Assembly (NCBI RefSeq): GCF_000378605.1
Contig: NZ_KB905155.1
Location: 1,178,001 to 1,242,000 of the forward strand
DNA from: Thioalkalivibrio sp. ALJ21
GTDB taxonomy: Bacteria; Pseudomonadota; Gammaproteobacteria; Ectothiorhodospirales; Ectothiorhodospiraceae
Direction: 5' to 3'
Length of the DNA stretch: 64,000 bases
Shown here: positions 13,214-21,115 of the stretch, piece after piece
How the letters are laid out: every line of letters starts with the position of its first letter
Numbering within the stretch: the first letter of the stretch is position 1
Position numbers and translations under genes: made by a program
The notes under the pieces: model-generated
Database searches by the model: none
What the model was told of the DNA's origin: nothing
Seen by the model: only the letters and a program-made list of their open reading frames with translations

Positions 13214-13337
13214 GCGCGATAGTGTATCCGCGCCGCGCGGTGCTGTCGCCTGTTGCCGCCCCGACCGGACGGCAAAGCCACGAAATTTCTGCCATGATCG
13301 GCAGCGCAGCACCCATAACAAAAGACAGGAGATGGAT

Positions 13338-13844
13338 ATGTCGCGTTCGATCAAGCGTCTGGCCGCCGGTACCGCCGCCGCGGTCTGTCTGGGACTGGCC
13401 AGCGTGGCCCAGGCCGACGTGTTCAACCAGCGCATGATGAGCATGGAGCTGGCCAACGACATCGCCGAGGCCGCGGTGCTGGCCTGCCGCGAAAAGGGAC
13501 ACCAGACCAGCGCCGTGGTCGTCGACCGCGCCGGCAACGACCGCGCCGTGCTGCGCGACAACCTGGCCGCCGTGCAGACCATCCAGATCGCCGGCGACAA
13601 GGCCCGAGCCACGGTCATGTCCGGCACCAGCTCCGGCAACTTCCGTGATAACCGCGAAGACATTCGCATGGAAATGAACCACGTGGACGGCATCATCATG
13701 CTGGAAGGCGGGCTGCCGATCGAGGTAGCCGGCAGCATGATCGGCGCGGTGGGCGTATCCGGTGCCCCTGGTGGTGATCTGGATGAAGAATGCGCCCAGG
13801 CCGCGCTAGACTCGGTTCAGGAGCGACTCGACTTCGCGATGTAA
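13338..13844 (+). CDS. Exported GlcG/HbpS-type (DUF336) heme-binding-like protein
   Basis: A 168-aa protein with a signal peptide (about residues 1-22, ending AQA before Asp) followed by one GlcG/HbpS domain (DUF336). The family pattern appears as [39 protein letters not shown] (about 32-70), the [15 protein letters not shown] helix and the C-terminal [34 protein letters not shown]. Some relatives bind heme or act as sensor accessory proteins; most are uncharacterised. I chose the ATG at 13338 because AGGAG lies 6 bases upstream; the ATG at 13332 directly abuts that site. It precedes a rhodanese gene by 42 bp on the same strand. Confidence 0.85.
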
Positions 13845-13886
13845 CGAGTCCCTGGGGACGGCCGCCGACCCACGCCCGGAGCCTTG

Positions 13887-14342
13887 ATGAAAGATCCACT
13901 CGCCAATCAGAAGACGGTTCCCGCGCCCGGCGTGCGGCGGATCCGCCCCCAGGAGGCGCATCAGCGTCTGCAGGAGCGCCCGCGCGACCTGCTAATCGAC
14001 ATCCGCTCGACGATGGAATTCCTGTTCGTCGGGCACCCGCAGGGCGCCATCCATATCCCGTGGATCGACGAGCCGGACTGGACCGTGAATCCGCACTTCG
14101 TGCCCCAGGTACGCAAGCTGCTGCTGGGCGGGGCCGAGGATCACAGCGAGGATGCCCCCGCGCTCTACCTGATCTGTCGCAGCGGCAAGCGCACGCTGGC
14201 CGCTGGCCAGGCCCTGGTCGATGCCGGTATCGAGAACGTGTACTCGGTGGAAGAAGGTTTTGAAGGACCGCTGGACGAACACCACCAGCGTTCCACCCGC
14301 GGTGGCTGGCGCTACCACGGGCTGCCCTGGGAACAGTGCTGA
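13887..14342 (+). CDS. Rhodanese-domain protein
   Basis: A 151-aa cytoplasmic single-domain rhodanese. The two family boxes are present: DLLIDIRSTMEFLFVGHPQGAIHIPW (about residues 35-60) and the active-site loop ICRSGKRT with Cys97. This loop is the six-residue sulfurtransferase type. A short acidic insert (GGAEDHSED) precedes the active site and the tail GGWRYHGLPWEQC ends in a second Cys. It should carry a persulfide sulfur in transfer or detoxification. CGGAG precedes the ATG by 6 bases. It lies next to the FNR-box locus, whose leftward operon carries another rhodanese. Confidence 0.9.
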   Translation: MKDPLANQKTVPAPGVRRIRPQEAHQRLQERPRDLLIDIRSTMEFLFVGHPQGAIHIPWIDEPDWTVNPHFVPQVRKLLLGGAEDHSEDAPALYLICRSGKRTLAAGQALVDAGIENVYSVEEGFEGPLDEHHQRSTRGGWRYHGLPWEQC

Positions 14343-14372: not shown

Positions 14373-14789
14373 CTAGCGGTGATACTCGCCGGCGCGCTCC
14401 GGCTGGTACTCGACGGCCTCGATGCGCACATGCATCTTCCCGCCACCCGGGCGCGGCCATTCGATCTCGTCCCCCTCGGACAGACCCAGCAGTGCACTGC
14501 CCACCGGCGCCAGAATCGACAGCGTGCCATCGCTCTCGTCCACGTCACGCGGGTAGACCAGCGTCAGCGAAAACTCCTCGCCGGACTCGATCACCCGGAA
14601 CCGGACCTTCGAATTCATCGTAACCACCGAGCCCGGGATCTCGTGCGAATCCACGACATCCGCGCGGTCCAGCTCGGCCTCCAGGTCGGCCTTGCCGGGA
14701 AAGCTGTCGTCCGGCAGCGATTCCAGCAGCTTGTCCAGGCGCTCCATGTCCGTGCTGGAGACGACGATCTTCGGCTTGTTCACTTTCAC
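14373..14789 (-). CDS. rnk: Rnk-type GreA/GreB-family transcription elongation regulator
   Basis: A 138-aa protein matching Rnk, the regulator of nucleoside diphosphate kinase. It has a short N-terminal helical arm (IVVSSTDMERLDKLLESL) instead of the long Gre coiled coil, and a GreA_GreB C-terminal domain (about residues 50-125) with VVTMNSKVRFRVIESGEEFSLTLVYP and LAPVGSALLGLSEGDEIEWP. Rnk binds RNA polymerase near the secondary channel and competes with Gre factors. It is downstream of the minus-strand rhodanese gene across 144 bp that hold no other gene, so it may be an independent unit. Confidence 0.88.
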   Translation of the reverse strand: MKVNKPKIVVSSTDMERLDKLLESLPDDSFPGKADLEAELDRADVVDSHEIPGSVVTMNSKVRFRVIESGEEFSLTLVYPRDVDESDGTLSILAPVGSALLGLSEGDEIEWPRPGGGKMHVRIEAVEYQPERAGEYHR

Positions 14790-14933: not shown

Positions 14934-15281
14934 CTATGGAGTCCGGGTCTCCCGCCACGCGGCGTAACCACCGCGCAGGACCAGGGCATCGATACCCATC
15001 GCGCGCAGGCTGTCGGCCACCAGCTGGGACCGGCCACGGCCCCCACAGAACACCACGACGGGCTGCTGGGGGTCCTGCATGTGGGATTCGATGGTGGCCT
15101 CCAGCTTGGGCCGGGGGATATTCACCGCGCCTTCAATACTGCCTTCGGCCGCCTCCTCCTGCTGGCGCACATCCACCAGCAGAAACGACCGCCCCGCCTG
15201 GCGCCAGTCGGCCAGTTCCGCGGGGTCCAGATGCGGCAGCTTTTCTTCCAGTTCGGCGATGCGTTTGTCGAAAAGACTCAC
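14934..15281 (-). CDS. Single-domain rhodanese-like sulfurtransferase
   Basis: A 115-aa cytoplasmic rhodanese. The N-terminal helix (FDKRIAELEEKLPHLDPAEL) leads to LLVDVRQQEEAAEGSIEGAVNIPR and the active site FCGGRGRS with Cys79. The loop has a glycine-rich CGGRGRS form, which in other small rhodaneses accepts sulfane sulfur. It is the last gene of a minus-strand run that starts at the FNR-type box; 62 bp separate it from the thioredoxin-membrane fusion gene. That distance permits a shared transcript. The role in the locus is likely handling sulfane sulfur, by inference. Confidence 0.85.
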   Translation of the reverse strand: MSLFDKRIAELEEKLPHLDPAELADWRQAGRSFLLVDVRQQEEAAEGSIEGAVNIPRPKLEATIESHMQDPQQPVVVFCGGRGRSQLVADSLRAMGIDALVLRGGYAAWRETRTP

Positions 15282-15343
15282 TGTCAGCGGCTCCGTTGAA
15301 GGCCCATGCGCAACATTCTACCGCCTCGGCAGAAGCAGGACCC

Positions 15344-16012
15344 TCACAGGGACGGGCGCAGCAGGAGCGGCGCGACGCGCAGCGTAAACAGCGCAAGCCC
15401 GACAAATGCGGCCACCGCACCGACGGCGGTCAGCATTGGAACGCTCAGCAGCCAGCCGAAGCCCATGCCCAGCACCGCGACATGCACCAGCACCTGCGGC
15501 GTCCAGGCCCACAGCCAGCCACCCGCGATCGGGTGCCCGGTAAAGCGCGGCAGCATGTGCTCGCCGAGGCCCATGATCAGCAGGAGCAGGAACCCGAGGG
15601 TAAAGCCATGCAGTGCAGCCGGGCGCGTGGCGCCATCCAGGAAGAAGCCGCCCAGCGGCAAGGCCGCACCCGCGATCAGCAACCAGATCATCGCGCCCAG
15701 CACGGAGGCACGGCTGGACGCCGAAAGTCCCAGCCCGACATGACGCGCGGTCTTCTGCGTGCGCTCCGGCGCCTCGGCAACCAGCGCAGTCGCAGCCGTG
15801 CGGTCCAGCAACCCGATGTGCTTCAGCTCGCCGTCCACCACCACGGCCGGGATGGAACGTATGCGCAACCGGGTCGCCAGTTGACGCCCCTCCGGCTGCC
15901 CCATGTCGACGACCGCGAAATCGATCTGCTTCTTCTGAGCCACCTCGCGCCAGATGCGCTCGGCATCGTGGCAGGAGGCACACCATTCGGACACCAGCAG
16001 TTCCACCTTCAT
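15344..16012 (-). CDS. Thioredoxin-fold domain fused to a NnrS/heme-copper-oxidase-like membrane domain
   Basis: A 222-aa fusion. Residues 1-80 look like a thioredoxin/glutaredoxin fold with the motif W-C-A-S-C (about 10-14), cis-Pro region SIPAVVVDGELKHIG and no signal peptide. Residues about 102-220 form four membrane helices; the second is preceded by LHGFTLGF and followed by GLGEHMLPRFTGHPIAGG. The pattern H-G-x3-G-F ... H-x-L-P-R-F-[ST]-G recurs in the membrane protein at 16481-16879, so the two are probably paralogous. In heme-copper oxidases and NnrS such His residues bind heme or metal. GGGGGAGG precedes the ATG by 7 bases. I know no described protein with this exact architecture. Confidence 0.75.
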   Translation of the reverse strand: MKVELLVSEWCASCHDAERIWREVAQKKQIDFAVVDMGQPEGRQLATRLRIRSIPAVVVDGELKHIGLLDRTAATALVAEAPERTQKTARHVGLGLSASSRASVLGAMIWLLIAGAALPLGGFFLDGATRPAALHGFTLGFLLLLIMGLGEHMLPRFTGHPIAGGWLWAWTPQVLVHVAVLGMGFGWLLSVPMLTAVGAVAAFVGLALFTLRVAPLLLRPSL

Positions 16013-16028
16013 GAATCGGCCTCCCCCG

Positions 16029-16481
16029 TTAGTCCGCGCAGCGCATGCAGTGGATGTCGTAGCGGTCGATCCACTGTTTGAGCCCCTCGACGGCTTCGGT
16101 CCCTGTATGCAGCCGCTCCAGCGCCTTCTGCGGGTCGTCCGGGCGCATCACCACCACCCAGGCATCGGTATAAGGGGCCACATTCACCAGTCCGGGGTCG
16201 GCCTCCACGGCGGGGTTAATGCGCTCGATGGTGCCGTCGAAGGGCGTGGGGATGCCCCCCGCCCACTTGCCGGACTCCAGCCGCGCCACCGGCTTGCCCG
16301 CGGCCCGGTGCGACCCGGGCTTGCGAAAACGGAAGTACTGCACGCGCCCCGCCATCGTCTGGGCGGGATCGGTAATGCCCAGGGTAAAGGTACCGTCGTC
16401 CTCCGGGCGGACCCAGACATAGTCGAGGTCGTAGAACAGGTCGTCCGGCAGCTCGCAGCCGTTGTATTCGGTATGGCTCAT
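16029..16481 (-). CDS. GcvH-like lipoyl-carrier protein resembling LbpA, with C-terminal CxxC
   Basis: A 150-aa lipoyl-domain protein. The lipoylation hairpin reads ARLESGKWAGGIPTPFDG with the acceptor Lys72; ESGKW(V/A)G is typical of the LbpA lipoate-binding proteins of the sHdr sulfur-oxidation pathway rather than of ordinary GcvH (ESVKA). The start CELPDDLFYDLDYVWVRPEDDG also looks LbpA-like. Unlike plain GcvH, it carries Cys9 and a C-terminal C-M-R-C at 145-148. No hdr, gcvT or gcvP gene is in the window. Its ATG overlaps the upstream TGA (TGATG at 16479-16483), showing coupling to the membrane protein gene; the fusion gene follows 16 bp later. Carrier function is firm, partner unknown. 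Confidence 0.8.
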   Translation of the reverse strand: MSHTEYNGCELPDDLFYDLDYVWVRPEDDGTFTLGITDPAQTMAGRVQYFRFRKPGSHRAAGKPVARLESGKWAGGIPTPFDGTIERINPAVEADPGLVNVAPYTDAWVVVMRPDDPQKALERLHTGTEAVEGLKQWIDRYDIHCMRCAD

Positions 16482-16879
16482 CACGCCCCCTTCGGACCGT
16501 AGTGGCGCACGGTGAGTGCGATATTCAGTGCGAACAGGATCATCGCCGCCCAGGCCATCGCCCCGCCGATCGCAACCGTCGGGTTATGGAAGATCACCCA
16601 GCCGGCGACCATCACCCAGAGACCGAGATTGGCCAGCACGAACTGCACATGCCCCAGCCGTTCCGAGAACAGCGAGCGCCCGGAAAAGCGCGGCAATACG
16701 TGGAGCCCCACGCCGTAGATCATCATGGTCACAAAGCCCAGCAGCATCAGATGACCATGGATGCGCGGCACATTGCCGGGGATCAGCCCCGGATGGGCCA
16801 GCCAGAGGATGCCGATGAGTCCACCCAGGAGTGCATAGGCCAGCGCGGCCAGGATGAACATCCGGTTGCGTGGATGCAT
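16481..16879 (-). CDS. Four-helix membrane protein related to NorB/CcoN-type subunit I fragments
   Basis: A 132-aa integral membrane protein with four helices (about residues 7-28, 38-60, 72-93, 97-118). The conserved core is RIHGHLMLLGFVTMMIYG, GLHVLPRFSGR, then LGHVQFVLANLG. The HGH and H-x-L-P-R-F motifs recall helices of NO reductase/cbb3 oxidase subunit I and of NnrS, which carry heme or metal ligands, but the protein is far too short to be an oxidase. GGGAG lies about 10 bases before the ATG at 16879; a longer frame to 17014 would cross the FNR-type box and is rejected. It is first in the leftward operon, about 70 bp from that box. Confidence 0.8.
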   Translation of the reverse strand: MHPRNRMFILAALAYALLGGLIGILWLAHPGLIPGNVPRIHGHLMLLGFVTMMIYGVGLHVLPRFSGRSLFSERLGHVQFVLANLGLWVMVAGWVIFHNPTVAIGGAMAWAAMILFALNIALTVRHYGPKGA

Positions 16880-16948
16880 GTCTCGTTTGCTCCCTTTTTG
16901 TTTGTTCTGCAGCGAGGCTAGACTACGATAAGATCCATCGTAAATACA

Positions 16949-16962
16949 TTGATCGAGATCAA
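16949..16962. promoter_or_regulatory. FNR/ANR/DNR-type operator (perfect TTGAT-N4-ATCAA)
   Basis: TTGATCGAGATCAA is a perfect FNR-family half-site pair, sited between the divergent membrane-protein and hemerythrin genes. It is 70 bp from the leftward start codon and 84 bp from the rightward one. For the leftward operon, a site centred at -41.5 would place the -10 near TAGTCT (complement 16920-16925), as expected for a class II activated promoter. FNR/ANR responds to oxygen and DNR/NnrR to nitric oxide; the sequence cannot tell them apart. Confidence 0.8.
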
Positions 16963-17045
16963 CACGGACGCTTGCGCCTTCAGAGACAGTACGCCCCACA
17001 TGTGCTCTGAACACACGCCGATTGCCCCGCCATCCGAGCCTATTG

Positions 17046-17603
17046 ATGAAACTGCACCTCCATGAACCCGCGCCCGGCTTCCACCGCCCGCTCGACCTCC
17101 TGCGGGCCTGTCATCGGCGGATCACCAACTGCCTCGACACAATGGAGCGGCTGTCGGAACACCTGGAGCAGCACGGGGCCGACGCGGAGGCCCAATCCGC
17201 GGCTCGCCGTGTGCTGGCCTATTTCGAGCAGGCCGCCCCGCAACATCACGCCGACGAGGACCAGGATCTGTTCCCGATCCTGCATGCGTACCGCGACCAC
17301 CCCGAGGCCCACCCACAACTGAGTGAGTGGATGGACCGCCTGAGCGCGGAGCACCCCCGTCTTGAGGCTGGCTGGGACGCCCTGGAGCCGGCCCTGCAAC
17401 GCATTGCGGCAGGGCACGCCGATCCGCTGGTAGGCGCGGCTGACTGGATACAGCGCTACCGGGCCCACCTCGAGCTGGAGGAACAAGCCGTACTGCCGCT
17501 GGCCGAACACCTGCTCAGCGCCGAGGAACGCGCCCGTATCGGACGCTCCATGGCGCACCGGCGCGGCATACCGGATGCGTACACGGAGCCCGCCAATGAG
17601 TGA
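17046..17603 (+). CDS. Hemerythrin-domain (HHE) protein
   Basis: A 185-aa cytoplasmic protein with a single hemerythrin-like four-helix bundle. Candidate di-iron ligands are RACHRRI (His near 26), the pair HHADED (about 68-74) with LFPIL, SAEHPRLEAGWD (His about 103) and YRAHLELEEQAVLPLAEHL (His about 140, Glu near 144). The bundle is typical of prokaryotic HHE proteins that bind O2 or NO or repair iron-sulfur clusters under nitrosative stress. The ATG at 17046 lacks a strong ribosome site. Its 3' end overlaps the DUF2249-hemerythrin gene by 8 bp, and the FNR-type box lies 84 bp upstream. Confidence 0.9.
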   Translation: MKLHLHEPAPGFHRPLDLLRACHRRITNCLDTMERLSEHLEQHGADAEAQSAARRVLAYFEQAAPQHHADEDQDLFPILHAYRDHPEAHPQLSEWMDRLSAEHPRLEAGWDALEPALQRIAAGHADPLVGAADWIQRYRAHLELEEQAVLPLAEHLLSAEERARIGRSMAHRRGIPDAYTEPANE

Positions 17604-18312
17604 CTTCCTGCTGGACCTGCGGGGACTCGCCGATCACGCGCACACCCGCGCCTACTACACGTTGCGTGAACTGCAACCGGGTCAGGTCTTCGACGTCTGG
17701 CTGGATCAGGAGCCGCAGCTGCTGATGGATGCGGTCAGCCTGCAGTTGCGCCACGCCATCCACTGGCAGGTGCAGGAAAGTGGCCCGCCGCTGTGGAAAC
17801 TGCGCGTCCAGCGCCGCGAGGACGTCGCGCCCGTGGATCTTGTCGATCTGCTTCAGCGCGACCACCTGCGCATCGACCGGCTGTTCGCCAGTGCCCTGCA
17901 CAAGGTCAATGCTGGCGATCTCGAGGGCGCGGCACCGGACTTTCGGGCCTACGTGGAAGGCCTGCGCCGGCACGTTCATGTGGAGAACGAACTCATCGTC
18001 CCGACGCTTGAGGTTGCGCGCGGAGTCGGCAGCCAGGACCCGGTCACGATCATGCTGCGCGAGCATGACGAGATCCTGGAACAAACCGCGCTGCTGGAAC
18101 ACGAGTTCCAGGAAGGTGTCGACGAGGCGTGGATGGTGGCCCCGTTCTTCGCCCTGATCTCCGGGGCCCTCGCCAAACACGAAAGCCGCGAGGAGCAAAA
18201 CGTCTTCCCGAACTGGGGACGCCGCCTGCGCCACGAACCCGACCTGGCGGCCGAACTCCTGGAGAAGGCCCATCAGCATCTGGGGGATGGCCTCGGGACG
18301 CCCGATCGATAG
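17596..18312 (+). CDS. DUF2249-hemerythrin fusion protein
   Basis: A 238-aa protein. Residues 1-72 are a DUF2249 domain (TusA/SirA-like fold), starting LLDLRGLADHAHTRAYYTLRELQPGQVF; unlike TusA it lacks the active CPxP cysteine. Residues about 85-225 form a hemerythrin bundle with LLQRDHLRIDRLF, LRRHVHVENELIVPTL, MLREHDEILEQTALLEHEF and LAKHESREEQNVFPNW, which give the expected His/Glu ligands. DUF2249 domains are often linked to hemerythrins and NO metabolism genes in denitrifiers. It overlaps the preceding hemerythrin gene (AATGAGTGA), so both are coupled and likely under the FNR-type box. Confidence 0.9.
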   Translation: MSDFLLDLRGLADHAHTRAYYTLRELQPGQVFDVWLDQEPQLLMDAVSLQLRHAIHWQVQESGPPLWKLRVQRREDVAPVDLVDLLQRDHLRIDRLFASALHKVNAGDLEGAAPDFRAYVEGLRRHVHVENELIVPTLEVARGVGSQDPVTIMLREHDEILEQTALLEHEFQEGVDEAWMVAPFFALISGALAKHESREEQNVFPNWGRRLRHEPDLAAELLEKAHQHLGDGLGTPDR

Positions 18313-18370: not shown

Positions 18371-21115
18371 GTGACACCACTCCACCCCGATACCGGCTTC
18401 CCCCGCCCTTTCCAGCGGCTTCGCGAGTGGCACGCGGTATGGGCAGTCGTCGCCCTGACCCTGGCGGTCCTGCTGCCTTGCAGCGCCAGCGCTCAGGCCG
18501 ACGAGTCGGCGCAACCCCTGATCGTCTCCCAGGACCATGCCTGGCCACCCTTTGCCTTCGCCGACAATGGCGGCAAGCCACGCGGCTTGCTGGTCGATTT
18601 GTGGCAGGAACTCGCAAACGAACTCGACCGCCCGGTGGAGTTCCGGCTGGTCGACTGGCCGCGCACCCTGGATCTCGTGCGCGACGGCGAGGCCAATGTC
18701 CACGGCGGGCTAATCCAGTCTCCCGAACGCGAACAAACGCTGGTCTTCAGCGACGTGCTGTTCCCCCTGCGCACCTTTGCCTTTGTGCGTACCGGCGCGC
18801 CCGTGGCCCAACTGGGCGAACTCGCACACAAGCCGGCAGGCGTTGTGGCGGGCAGCTTCGAACTCGAGTTCATGCGGCGCGAACGACCCGAGCACCCGCT
18901 GCAGGTCTTCGACAACAACGAGCAAATGGTGCGCGCCGCGGTGGAAGGCATGATCGATGTCTTCGTCGGCGACTACCCGGTCGCCATGTACCTGCTGGAC
19001 CGTCATGGCGAGCCGGGCATGTTTCACCCCCTGGAGCTGCTCTACGAGCAGCCCCTGCGCGCAGCGGTAACGCACGGTAACGAGGAACTGCTGGACGAAA
19101 TCAACACGGCCATCGCCCAGCTGGATGACGAACTGCTGCGCCAGATCACGCAGCGCTGGATCCACTCGGATACGGTCGAGGTGATCCCCACCTGGCTGCT
19201 CCCAACCGTCATTGGCCTGGGCCTGCTGGCGGTATTGCTGTATGCCGCATTGCTGCTTCGCCAGCGGCGCGCGCTCGAAACACGCGTTCGCCAGCGCACC
19301 GCGGAGCTCGAGGATGAGCGCGAGCTGTTCCGTACCCTGACCGAACACGCCGCAGCCGGGGTATTCATCCTCCAGAACGACCATTTCCAGACCGTCAATC
19401 CGGCCCTTTCCCGTATCCTTCAGCGCCCCGAATCCTGGCTGCTGAACCAGCCCTTCTACGAGATCATCCACCCGGAACAGCGCGAGGCCGTGACCCAGCG
19501 GGCCCGCGACCGGATCGCGGGCAAAAAGGTGCCGGATCACTACGAGATGAAGGTCATCACCGGCGAGGGCGAGACCCGCTGGGTCGACCTGACCGCCGGC
19601 CGCGTAGAGCTGCAAAGCGGCTCGGCCAGTATTGGCACGATATACGACATCACCGAACGGCGACTGCTGGAGGATCAACTGCGCACCAGCGAGGCCCAGT
19701 ACCGCCAGCTGGTCGAGAATATCGGCGACATCATCTACACCCTTACGCCGGACGGCGCCATCACCTATGTCTCGCCGCAATGGACACGAGTACTGGCTTA
19801 TACCGCCGAGGAAACGACCGGAACCCCCATCACCGATTACGTCCATCGGGAGGACCGCGAGGAATTGGGCCGCTTCCTCCAGCGCACCATCCGCTCCGAG
19901 AAAAACGACCAGGAAATCGAGTACCGCATCCGGCATCAAAAAGGGGAATGGCGCTGGCACGTCTCGAGCGGCGCCCCGATCCGCAGCGCGACGGGCGAGA
20001 TCACGGGCTATGTGGGTGTAGCCCGAGACATCACCGATCGCCGCCGCATGCACGACGAGCTTCAGTACCAGGCGCGTTTCAATGCCATGCTGGCGCACCT
20101 GTCCTCGGATTTTGTAACCGCCAGCGCCGACTTGATGGACGAACGTCTGGACGCCGCGCTGGCCGATATCGGGCGCTTTTTCGAGAGCGACCGCTGCTAC
20201 CTGTTCGAGTTGTCAGCGGATGGCGACCATATGGACAACACCCACGAATGGTGTGCCCCCGGTGTGTTCTCCGTAATGGATCAGCTGCGGGATGTAGACC
20301 TCAATGAACTGCCCTGGTGGCGCACCCGCATGCTGGAAATGATCGAGCAGCGCATACCGGTGGTGATCCCCGTGGTGGACGACCTCCCTGAGGAGGCGGC
20401 CACCGAACGCGAGCTGTTCCGGCGACAAGGCGTCAAGACCCTGATCTGCGTACCCATCCTGACTGGACAGCAGGTCACCGGCTTTGTCGGGATGGACATG
20501 CTGCGCCCGCGCACCTGGCGCAAGGATCAGGATGAACTGCTGCTGGTGCTCGGCAACCTGATCTCGGAGGCACTGCAGCGTAACCACCTGGAGATCCAGC
20601 TACGCGATCTGGGGATCACCGATCCATTGACCGGCCTGTACAACCGCCGCTACCTGATGGAGCGCCTGCGCGAACAGATCGAGGCCTGGCGCCGCCACGG
20701 CGAACACTTTGCCGTGGCGATTCTGGATCTGGACCACTTCAAGGCCCTCAATGACACCCATGGGCACCTGGCCGGCGACGAGGTGCTGCGCAACTTCGGT
20801 GATCTGCTGCGACGCCAGCACCGGGTCTTCGACATTGTCGCTCGTTTTGGCGGCGAGGAATTCATCGTGGTGCTGAGCCATGTCGATCACGAGGCCGCCA
20901 CCACCGCGATCGAGCGCCTGCTGCAGGCCACCCGCGAACTCGACACACGGTTCGAGGGCGAATCACTGGCCTTCACGGTCAGCGCCGGCCTGGCCTGGTC
21001 CGACGAGTGCGACCCGGAGCACCTCACGCCCGAAGCCCTGATCGATCGGGCCGATGGGCGTCTGTATCGCGCGAAGGCCCAGGGGCGCGACCGGCTTGTA
21101 GCCGGAGACACGTAA
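18371..21115 (+). CDS. Membrane sensor diguanylate cyclase (SBP_bac_3-TM-PAS-PAS-GAF-GGDEF)
   Basis: A 914-aa signalling protein. Order: N-terminal signal anchor (about 20-40), a periplasmic amino-acid-binding-protein-like domain (about 48-270, PLIVSQDHAWPPFAF), a membrane helix (about 275-297), a short coiled coil, two PAS domains (about 322-435 and 440-565, each ending in a PAC-like DITERR/DITDRR), a GAF domain (about 585-735) and a GGDEF domain (about 745-910). The active site is intact (GGEEF near residue 827) and is preceded by an RxxD inhibitory site (RVFD). It should make cyclic di-GMP in response to a periplasmic solute. The start is GTG at 18371; no ATG fits. It follows the hemerythrin operon by 58 bp. 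Confidence 0.92.
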   Translation: MTPLHPDTGFPRPFQRLREWHAVWAVVALTLAVLLPCSASAQADESAQPLIVSQDHAWPPFAFADNGGKPRGLLVDLWQELANELDRPVEFRLVDWPRTLDLVRDGEANVHGGLIQSPEREQTLVFSDVLFPLRTFAFVRTGAPVAQLGELAHKPAGVVAGSFELEFMRRERPEHPLQVFDNNEQMVRAAVEGMIDVFVGDYPVAMYLLDRHGEPGMFHPLELLYEQPLRAAVTHGNEELLDEINTAIAQLDDELLRQITQRWIHSDTVEVIPTWLLPTVIGLGLLAVLLYAALLLRQRRALETRVRQRTAELEDERELFRTLTEHAAAGVFILQNDHFQTVNPALSRILQRPESWLLNQPFYEIIHPEQREAVTQRARDRIAGKKVPDHYEMKVITGEGETRWVDLTAGRVELQSGSASIGTIYDITERRLLEDQLRTSEAQYRQLVENIGDIIYTLTPDGAITYVSPQWTRVLAYTAEETTGTPITDYVHREDREELGRFLQRTIRSEKNDQEIEYRIRHQKGEWRWHVSSGAPIRSATGEITGYVGVARDITDRRRMHDELQYQARFNAMLAHLSSDFVTASADLMDERLDAALADIGRFFESDRCYLFELSADGDHMDNTHEWCAPGVFSVMDQLRDVDLNELPWWRTRMLEMIEQRIPVVIPVVDDLPEEAATERELFRRQGVKTLICVPILTGQQVTGFVGMDMLRPRTWRKDQDELLLVLGNLISEALQRNHLEIQLRDLGITDPLTGLYNRRYLMERLREQIEAWRRHGEHFAVAILDLDHFKALNDTHGHLAGDEVLRNFGDLLRRQHRVFDIVARFGGEEFIVVLSHVDHEAATTAIERLLQATRELDTRFEGESLAFTVSAGLAWSDECDPEHLTPEALIDRADGRLYRAKAQGRDRLVAGDT

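Follow-up and report, generated by a model that had tools for sequence, protein, structure and literature searches.

A Conserved Lipoyl Protein and Thioredoxin Module With Nitric Oxide-Type Control Signals in Thioalkalivibrio and Other sHdr-Type Sulfur Oxidizers

Introduction

Protein-bound lipoate is textbook knowledge for the 2-oxoacid dehydrogenases and glycine cleavage, and thioredoxin and lipoic acid are said, in the title of a 2005 study by Stoyanovsky, to catalyse denitrosation. A further role of protein-bound lipoate in sHdr sulfur oxidation has been established since 2018 (PMC6067878, in the part covered), and reduced lipoate converts nitric oxide (NO) to HNO (PMC10444860, likewise in part). 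For nitrosative stress, the covered parts of PMC1274295 describe DNR as binding TTGATnnnnATCAA and predict that the DNR paralogs of A. ferrooxidans control two NO-detoxifying systems, one of them a single-domain globin operon. Here we describe a locus in a 64,000-nucleotide (nt) stretch of Thioalkalivibrio sp. ALJ21 (NZ_KB905155.1:1,178,001-1,242,000; hereafter the window, whose numbering is used for all module coordinates), in which a lipoyl protein termed LipX, a thioredoxin-membrane fusion (trxTM), a four-helix membrane protein (tm4), and a rhodanese are divergent from two hemerythrin genes (hr1 and hr2).

Our preferred reading, which we consider about evenly balanced between right and wrong, is that this module is an NO-responsive, oxygen-tuned thiol relay of sHdr-type sulfur oxidizers. 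The link to NO comes from the genomic context; direction, substrate, and product are our inference. An initial annotation of the same DNA had known of no described system with this combination of families, and our search of the open-licence PMC literature, judged mostly by title and the start of the abstract, likewise found no paper joining a lipoyl carrier, thioredoxin, hemerythrin, and NO-type control; the passages covered of PMC12423496, PMC6620896, and PMC3770913 do not describe the module.

Conservation of the Module

LipX relatives were gathered by a contig scan keyed on LipX motifs and blind to gene context, and the best 80 of 106 confirmed relatives, a few of which share a genome, were taken as the locus set. 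They span Thioalkalivibrio, Acidithiobacillus, Sulfuriferula, Thiobacillus, Acidiferrobacter, and many Burkholderiales and other proteobacterial metagenome-assembled genomes; one host labelled Terriglobia (L101) may be a binning error, and among the first 88 loci L068 is the same record as L097. Neighbour gene families were mapped with profiles built from the same loci, and p values for locus counts treat loci as independent. A thioredoxin was encoded within 4 kb of LipX in 79 of the 80 loci, more than chance would give, and the earlier proposal of a module is supported, the module being conserved. The same distance contained tm4 in 48 loci, a thioredoxin fused to a tm4-like domain in 49, a hemerythrin in 49, a DNR-like regulator in 30, DUF488 in 15, a flavin/2Fe-2S reductase in 14, a globin in 10, SirB in 9, an LplA-like ligase in 8, and CopD in 8. 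The 30 DNR-like regulators occupied the inner 577 kb of the sampled DNA compared to two more in the outer 477 kb (the background figure of 0.0064 for this family is our rough estimate).

The membrane protein and the fused thioredoxin occurred together in 47 loci, were both absent from 30, and stood alone in 3 (p 2e-18), while a hemerythrin was near 30 of the 32 loci without tm4 compared to 19 of the 48 with it (p 5e-7). Since tm4 pairs with the fused thioredoxin and hemerythrin favours loci without tm4, the module is found in two forms, a membrane form (tm4 and the thioredoxin-membrane fusion) and a soluble form (free thioredoxin and hemerythrin).

Two genome surveys gave a similar picture. 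In the order, LipX was present in 15 of 47 genomes at 65-99% identity, adjoined by tm4 and trxTM in 15/15 loci, hemerythrin in 14/15, and rhodanese in 12/15 (tblastn being used for the rhodanese; one of the loci is cut by a contig end). Among 369 genomes of the class, tm4 had a match in 16, of which 12 were strong (E≤4.9e-33) and 11 of these 12 had LipX adjoining. The 18 LipX genomes of the class, identified without regard to context, had a hemerythrin nearby in 13, a DNR-like regulator in 10, either of the two in 17, and a thioredoxin in 16; the remaining genome with neither hemerythrin nor DNR-like gene has its locus at a contig end. A rhodanese-type profile match lay within 4 kb of LipX in 13 of the 80 loci, and rhodanese was rejected as a core member and is considered a lineage-specific extra. 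The four-family leftward set proposed initially is narrowed to a core of lipoyl protein and thioredoxin, joined by tm4 or hemerythrin.

The soluble form is illustrated by A. ferrooxidans, in which LipX is carried on three plasmid records of 44-47 kb. The row read from one of them comprises a globin, FAD oxidoreductase, thioredoxin, hemerythrin, LipX, a hypothetical protein, a DUF2249 protein, and a second hemerythrin, followed by an HdrB-like protein, DUF488, and a carboxymuconolactone decarboxylase family protein. Some lipX copies stand in one row with a globin resembling NO dioxygenases and the reductase of that globin; the single globin compared aligned with the N-terminus of an NO-inducible flavohemoprotein (1.6e-27) and with Vitreoscilla haemoglobin. 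Conserved hemerythrin columns were His126, Glu130, His157, His195, and Glu199 (35/35) and His90 (34/35) for type HHEa and His23, His67, Glu71, His103, His141, and Glu145 (27/27) for type HHEb, to which hr1 belongs; we take these columns to be the di-iron ligands. Acidithiobacillus sp. HP-2 has three LipX loci (L138, L140, and L146), two of them without a globin in reach. One genome (G192, L073) has tm4, a hemerythrin, and two DNR-like genes without LipX, such that tm4 may act without the lipoyl protein, and four loci with merely distant tm4 matches (L077-L080) led nowhere.

Locus Organization

The six genes and the perfect box between two divergent groups, as initially annotated, were all confirmed. 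The window genome is Thioalkalivibrio-like, as the nearest named relatives of the locus among the matches listed are Thioalkalivibrio. The features of the locus are:

14934..15281, - strand: rhodanese-like protein, 115 amino acids (aa) (Pfam Rhodanese 1.1e-17)
15344..16012, - strand: trxTM, thioredoxin domain (Pfam Thioredoxin_3 2.1e-9) followed by a membrane part
16029..16481, - strand: lipX, 150 aa, lipoyl carrier sister to LbpA1 (Pfam GCV_H 2.3e-30)
16481..16879, - strand: tm4, 132 aa, membrane protein with four helices, similar to the last four helices (C-terminal) of cbb3 subunit I and NO reductase
16933..16949: NsrR-type inverted repeat ATGYAT-N5-ATRCAT with one mismatch (consensus from PMC1274295)
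16949..16962: predicted FNR/DNR box TTGATCGAGATCAA, a perfect TTGAT-N4-ATCAA, between the divergent gene groups
17046..17603, + strand: hr1, single-domain hemerythrin (HHE), 185 aa (Pfam Hemerythrin 5e-14)
17596..18312, + strand: hr2, DUF2249-hemerythrin fusion, 238 aa (Hemerythrin 9.3e-13, DUF2249 3.6e-8)

The tm4 stop codon and the lipX ATG overlap by 1 nt (TGATG as read from the sequence), which sets the lipX start and with it the numbering of the lipoyl lysine as Lys72, the position given earlier. Translational coupling, which the first reading had extended to both gene groups, was seen for tm4/lipX and for hr1/hr2 (8-nt overlap); lipX and trxTM are separated by a gap of 16 nt, and the 62-nt gap between trxTM and the rhodanese gene means that coupling of the latter is not tight.

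Beyond the module, a 914-aa protein with solute-binding, PAS, and GGDEF-type sequence (by eye) is encoded at 18371-21115, its start lying 58 nt past the hemerythrin gene, with counterparts in the same position at L081, L082, L086, and L090 that hint at a cyclic di-GMP output. On the other side, 13332-14342 and 14373-14789 hold an HbpS-like haem protein with a second rhodanese (+ strand) and an Rnk-type nucleoside diphosphate kinase regulator (- strand).

LipX Is a Separate Lipoyl-Carrier Clade

Four clear GCV_H proteins were identified in the window genome, namely LipX, a canonical GcvH, and the two LbpAs encoded in the sHdr cluster; a fifth match is weak and forms part of a longer frame. In a tree of 62 rows, whose outgroup is one GcvH row on a long branch, LipX formed a single clade (97/95) outside both the LbpA1 and LbpA2 groups, sister to LbpA1 (98/88) with LbpA2 outside. 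The lipoylation motif ESGKW was invariant in 47 aligned LipX rows (ESSKW in L071 and L072) and an N-terminal cysteine is kept. LipX of the window ends with CMRC, and a C-terminal C[ML]RC was present in all 80 loci compared to none of the LbpA1 and LbpA2 rows examined. The AlphaFold2 model of LipX has a predicted local distance difference test (pLDDT) score of 91.3. On sequence grounds, the LipX proteins form a lipoyl-carrier group of their own, with a predicted and conserved lipoylation site and extra cysteines.

It is scarcely credible that LipX is simply a redundant H protein of glycine cleavage whose neighbours have nothing to do with it. It has the GcvH Pfam match, and the three plasmid records annotate it as glycine cleavage system protein H; its scores are nevertheless below the curated gcvH cut-offs (TIGR00527, 79.6 versus 115.85 bits; NF002270, 96.7 versus 117 bits), it groups with LbpA1, and inspection by eye of the 40 most frequent neighbour families revealed no glycine-cleavage gene. 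These scores, the tree position, and the canonical GcvH elsewhere in the genome led us to reject an ordinary GcvH identity, as the earlier distinction between this carrier and glycine cleavage had anticipated, and the plasmid label points to a misannotation.

A lipoate-protein ligase-like gene (L158:6166-7221 and relatives) is divergent to DNR-lipX in 8 loci and is perhaps a dedicated LipX ligase. At L111, a second lipoyl protein about 6 kb from LipX has a long branch in the tree and groups with LbpA2. LipX of G043 (L074), from another genus, is 91% identical to the window protein compared to only 65% for G012 (L113) of the same genus, suggesting a possible horizontal transfer.

Membrane Proteins tm4 and trxTM

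In trxTM, a thioredoxin-fold domain (WCASC and cis-Pro55) is joined to a membrane domain that is a homologue of tm4; most pairs share about 29-44% identity, the alignments covering 46 to 142 residues. WCxxC and Pro55 were conserved in 80/80 aligned thioredoxins, the window included, and the invariant columns of the membrane domain were His135, Glu151-His152, and Arg156 (11 rows). In tm4, His41-x-His43 (35 rows) and His60 were invariant. The initial annotation had called tm4 NorB/NnrS-like; the likeness to subunit I of oxidases and NO reductases held, and identity as a plain NnrS was rejected as the Pfam NnrS match (E 0.006, 16.4 bits) does not reach its cut-off of 28 bits. The Pfam COX1 match (1.2e-5, 24.9 bits) is also under its cut-off (34.8); a tm4 profile matched CcoN of cbb3 oxidase (9g6b) at E 2.2e-6, with His41 and His43 aligned with the H-V-H of CcoN, which presumably holds two haems.

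The AlphaFold2 model of tm4 (pLDDT 90.1) has four helices, short of the full 12-helix core of haem-copper oxidases (HCOs), and aligned over its full length with the C-terminal helices of oxidases and NO reductases (VIA Z up to 13.7; for CcoN 9g6b, Z 13.3 and root mean square deviation 2.5 over 131 residues). A Foldseek search with the model gave no match at E≤0.001 (best E 0.016), and MAPEG-type proteins also reach a Z of about 10.7, middling values being common among helical bundles, so the fold assignment draws mainly on the sequence profile. By profile and model, tm4 is closer to the last four helices of cbb3 oxidase and NO reductase subunit I than to NnrS. Separately, a 420-aa multi-pass membrane protein (L126:5863-7125) near LipX in 7 loci looked NnrS-like by eye only; the single family member scanned gave no Pfam or NCBIfam match at E≤0.01, and the family is not used as evidence.

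Promoter Boxes and Regulators

The box at 16949-16962 is the sole exact match in the window, where TTGAT-N4-ATCAA at one mismatch or fewer had 2 matches compared to 0.45 expected by shuffling (at least 2 in 9/100 shuffles). The box on its own is thus only a mild surprise, and its conservation carries more weight. Of the 10 closest Thioalkalivibrio loci, 9 keep the box without a mismatch and one has a degenerate copy, against a background of diverging flanking DNA. In 46 loci left after dereplication at 90% LipX identity, boxes with at most one mismatch numbered 20 inside the upstream windows of module genes (19 loci) and 27 outside (p 2e-20), although these upstream windows make up 14,033 of 582,703 bp, and each of 19 permuted palindromes of equal composition had none inside. 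The motif and its conserved promoter position point to a predicted FNR/DNR promoter, and the control signals of anaerobic or NO type that had been proposed initially are supported. An exact ATGYAT-N5-ATRCAT stands beside the box in four relative genomes; this repeat was found in 8 of 185 loci, with 7 of the 8 (from these four genomes) at this box promoter.

Host-genome searches took in the window genome and the hosts of 50 of the 80 loci (51 genomes), and a DNR-like regulator was identified in 40 of them. The one neighbour regulator tested (L147) has P. aeruginosa DNR (3dkw) as its closest solved relative (E 9.8e-37, residues 14-218), which we take to be a haem-type NO sensor. The window genome also encodes an Fnr above cut-off (248.7 versus 228 bits).

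An alternative that gives oxygen the leading part is a defence or micro-oxic module against O2 or peroxide, with the lipoyl-thioredoxin pair as a peroxidase-type reductant, hemerythrins storing or scavenging O2, and Fnr inducing at low O2. The mycobacterial lipoyl E2-AhpD-AhpC system is an analogue for such a reductant, and the carboxymuconolactone decarboxylase family gene near LipX on the A. ferrooxidans plasmid is presumably AhpD-like. The FNR-type box together with the above-cut-off Fnr would fit this alternative, as would O2 binding by hemerythrins (PMC3770913, in the part covered). Nonetheless, we consider it improbable, as the adjacent DNR-like regulators, the globin and reductase genes, and the NsrR-type repeats point to NO, and a look by eye through the 40 most frequent neighbour families showed no peroxiredoxin.

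Association With sHdr Sulfur Oxidation

In the 369 class genomes, sHdrA (E≤1e-100) was found in 22, LipX (E≤1e-50) in 18, and both in 17 (p 6e-24); the LipX genome without sHdrA is 75% complete and five sHdr genomes were without LipX. Similarly, 42 of the 51 LipX host genomes contained sHdrA. This link is new relative to the initial annotation, which had not seen it. LipX may need the sHdr-linked lipoylation enzymes, may protect the sHdr pathway, or may work in it.

The last option would make LipX a second kind of LbpA, used by the sHdr complex when conditions are anoxic, denitrifying, or rich in NO, with thioredoxin and rhodanese as sulfur or electron partners and hemerythrins that only buffer O2 or NO. 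The co-occurrence and the sister position to LbpA1 argue for this explanation, as do the rhodanese adjoining in Thioalkalivibrio and the plasmid-borne HdrB-like gene close to LipX in A. ferrooxidans. Against this, the sHdr cluster of the window genome (contig C1, ~14-27 kb) has its own LbpA1, LbpA2, and lipoylation genes (by eye) and LipX is far off at C1:1194032, the recurrent neighbours of LipX are hemerythrins, DNR-like regulators, and globins, and the C[ML]RC tail has no counterpart in the LbpA rows. In addition, a common need for the sHdr-linked lipoylation enzymes described in the covered part of PMC10332631 could explain the co-occurrence. On balance the alternative appears unlikely, although less so than the oxygen-centred one.

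Proposed Function

In the preferred NO-responsive relay, the order would be thioredoxin, then the lipoyl arm with its CMRC pair, then an NO-binding metal centre. Thioredoxin would keep the lipoyl arm and the CMRC pair in the dithiol state or accept electrons from the lipoyl arm. The swinging arm would draw NO or a nitroso group off the thiols of proteins and off iron-nitrosyl targets and release HNO/NO, which the metal centre encoded nearby, be it the di-iron site of hemerythrin, a haem in tm4, or a globin, would bind and convert to N2O or nitrate. That tm4 and hemerythrin swap places beside LipX suggests that both are the metal partner. The module may in this way shield the persulfide and lipoyl chemistry of the sHdr pathway from NO. 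In favour of the relay we count the recurrent neighbours of LipX, the boxes and their conservation, the NsrR-type repeats, the Fnr and NsrR-like genes of the window genome, the predicted DNR control of a globin operon in A. ferrooxidans, and the known chemistry of lipoate and thioredoxin with NO and nitroso groups. A more specific and rather more doubtful version is a dedicated lipoyl system that strips NO from thiols and iron sites and reduces it to N2O, built from thioredoxin, a CxxC-tailed lipoyl arm, and an NO-binding metal protein, which would be either hemerythrin or a minimal haem membrane protein corresponding to the last four oxidase helices.

Several observations weigh against the NO-responsive relay. 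The NsrR-type repeat of the window has a mismatch (0.18 such repeats expected by chance), the NsrR-like protein of this genome (best family NsrR, 2.3e-44) scored 150.9 bits compared to a cut-off of 182, no DNR-like regulator was found at E≤1e-20 in the window genome or in five Thioalkalivibrio-labelled hosts, and a search of the window genome for cd1 nitrite reductase found none; for these reasons the box here may report oxygen via Fnr. The more distant T. halophilus (L113) has the tm4-lipX-trxTM core with neither hemerythrin nor DNR nearby, and no box with one mismatch or fewer anywhere in the locus. For the regulators of L147 and L158, the best NCBIfam label is FtrB, below cut-off, and not DNR. 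Neither a hemerythrin nor a DNR-like gene was within 4 kb in 23 of the 80 loci, some of them at contig ends. The membrane form is largely confined to one tree branch, such that the tm4/hemerythrin swap may represent a single event, and tm4 is too short for the remaining HCO ligands. Finally, the near-exclusive sHdr link would equally fit a role in sulfur oxidation itself. Overall, the initial interpretation of an anaerobically or NO-induced module moving electrons or sulfur through a dihydrolipoyl carrier is partly supported.

A conserved lipoyl carrier linked with hemerythrins and NO-type control would extend the roles of protein-bound lipoate by one more, and the module could explain the survival of lipoyl- and persulfide-dependent sulfur oxidizers under their own or their neighbours' denitrification. 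If the N2O-forming version is true, protein-bound lipoate would serve in a process other than glycine cleavage, sHdr, and the 2-oxoacid dehydrogenase reactions, and NO reductase would have a minimal, thiol-fed relative in tm4/trxTM.

Comparison With Known Systems

The locus shares features with four described systems. DUF2249 presumably corresponds to COG4309, a family in common with the DNR/NsrR nitrosative-stress regulons. The covered parts of the work on these regulons (PMC1274295) also share the TTGATnnnnATCAA box, the DNR-like regulator, and the single-domain globin operon of A. ferrooxidans with the module, and contain no lipoyl carrier or lipoyl-linked thioredoxin.

Compared to subunit I of cbb3 oxidase and NO reductase, tm4 would span the C-terminal four helices including the H-x-H pair; it differs from these proteins and from NnrS in its length of 132 aa, its thioredoxin-membrane partner, and its scores under the Pfam COX1 and NnrS cut-offs.

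The LbpA1 and LbpA2 carriers of sHdr, in the parts covered of PMC6067878 and PMC10332631, resemble LipX as GcvH-like carriers with an ES-x-KW motif and an N-terminal cysteine, and are mostly found in the same host genomes and with LplA-like ligases. In contrast, LipX has its own clade and C-terminal C[ML]RC, in the window genome is not part of the shdr cluster, and is tied to thioredoxin, hemerythrin, tm4, and NO-type regulators; the words "hemerythrin" and "thioredoxin" are absent from the main text of both papers.

Thioredoxin/lipoate denitrosation chemistry, as covered in parts of PMC10444860 and PMC8301044, is alike in that dithiols act on S-nitrosothiols or convert NO to HNO. That work uses generic thioredoxin and free or pyruvate dehydrogenase-bound lipoate, whereas here a dedicated carrier and its thioredoxin are co-encoded.

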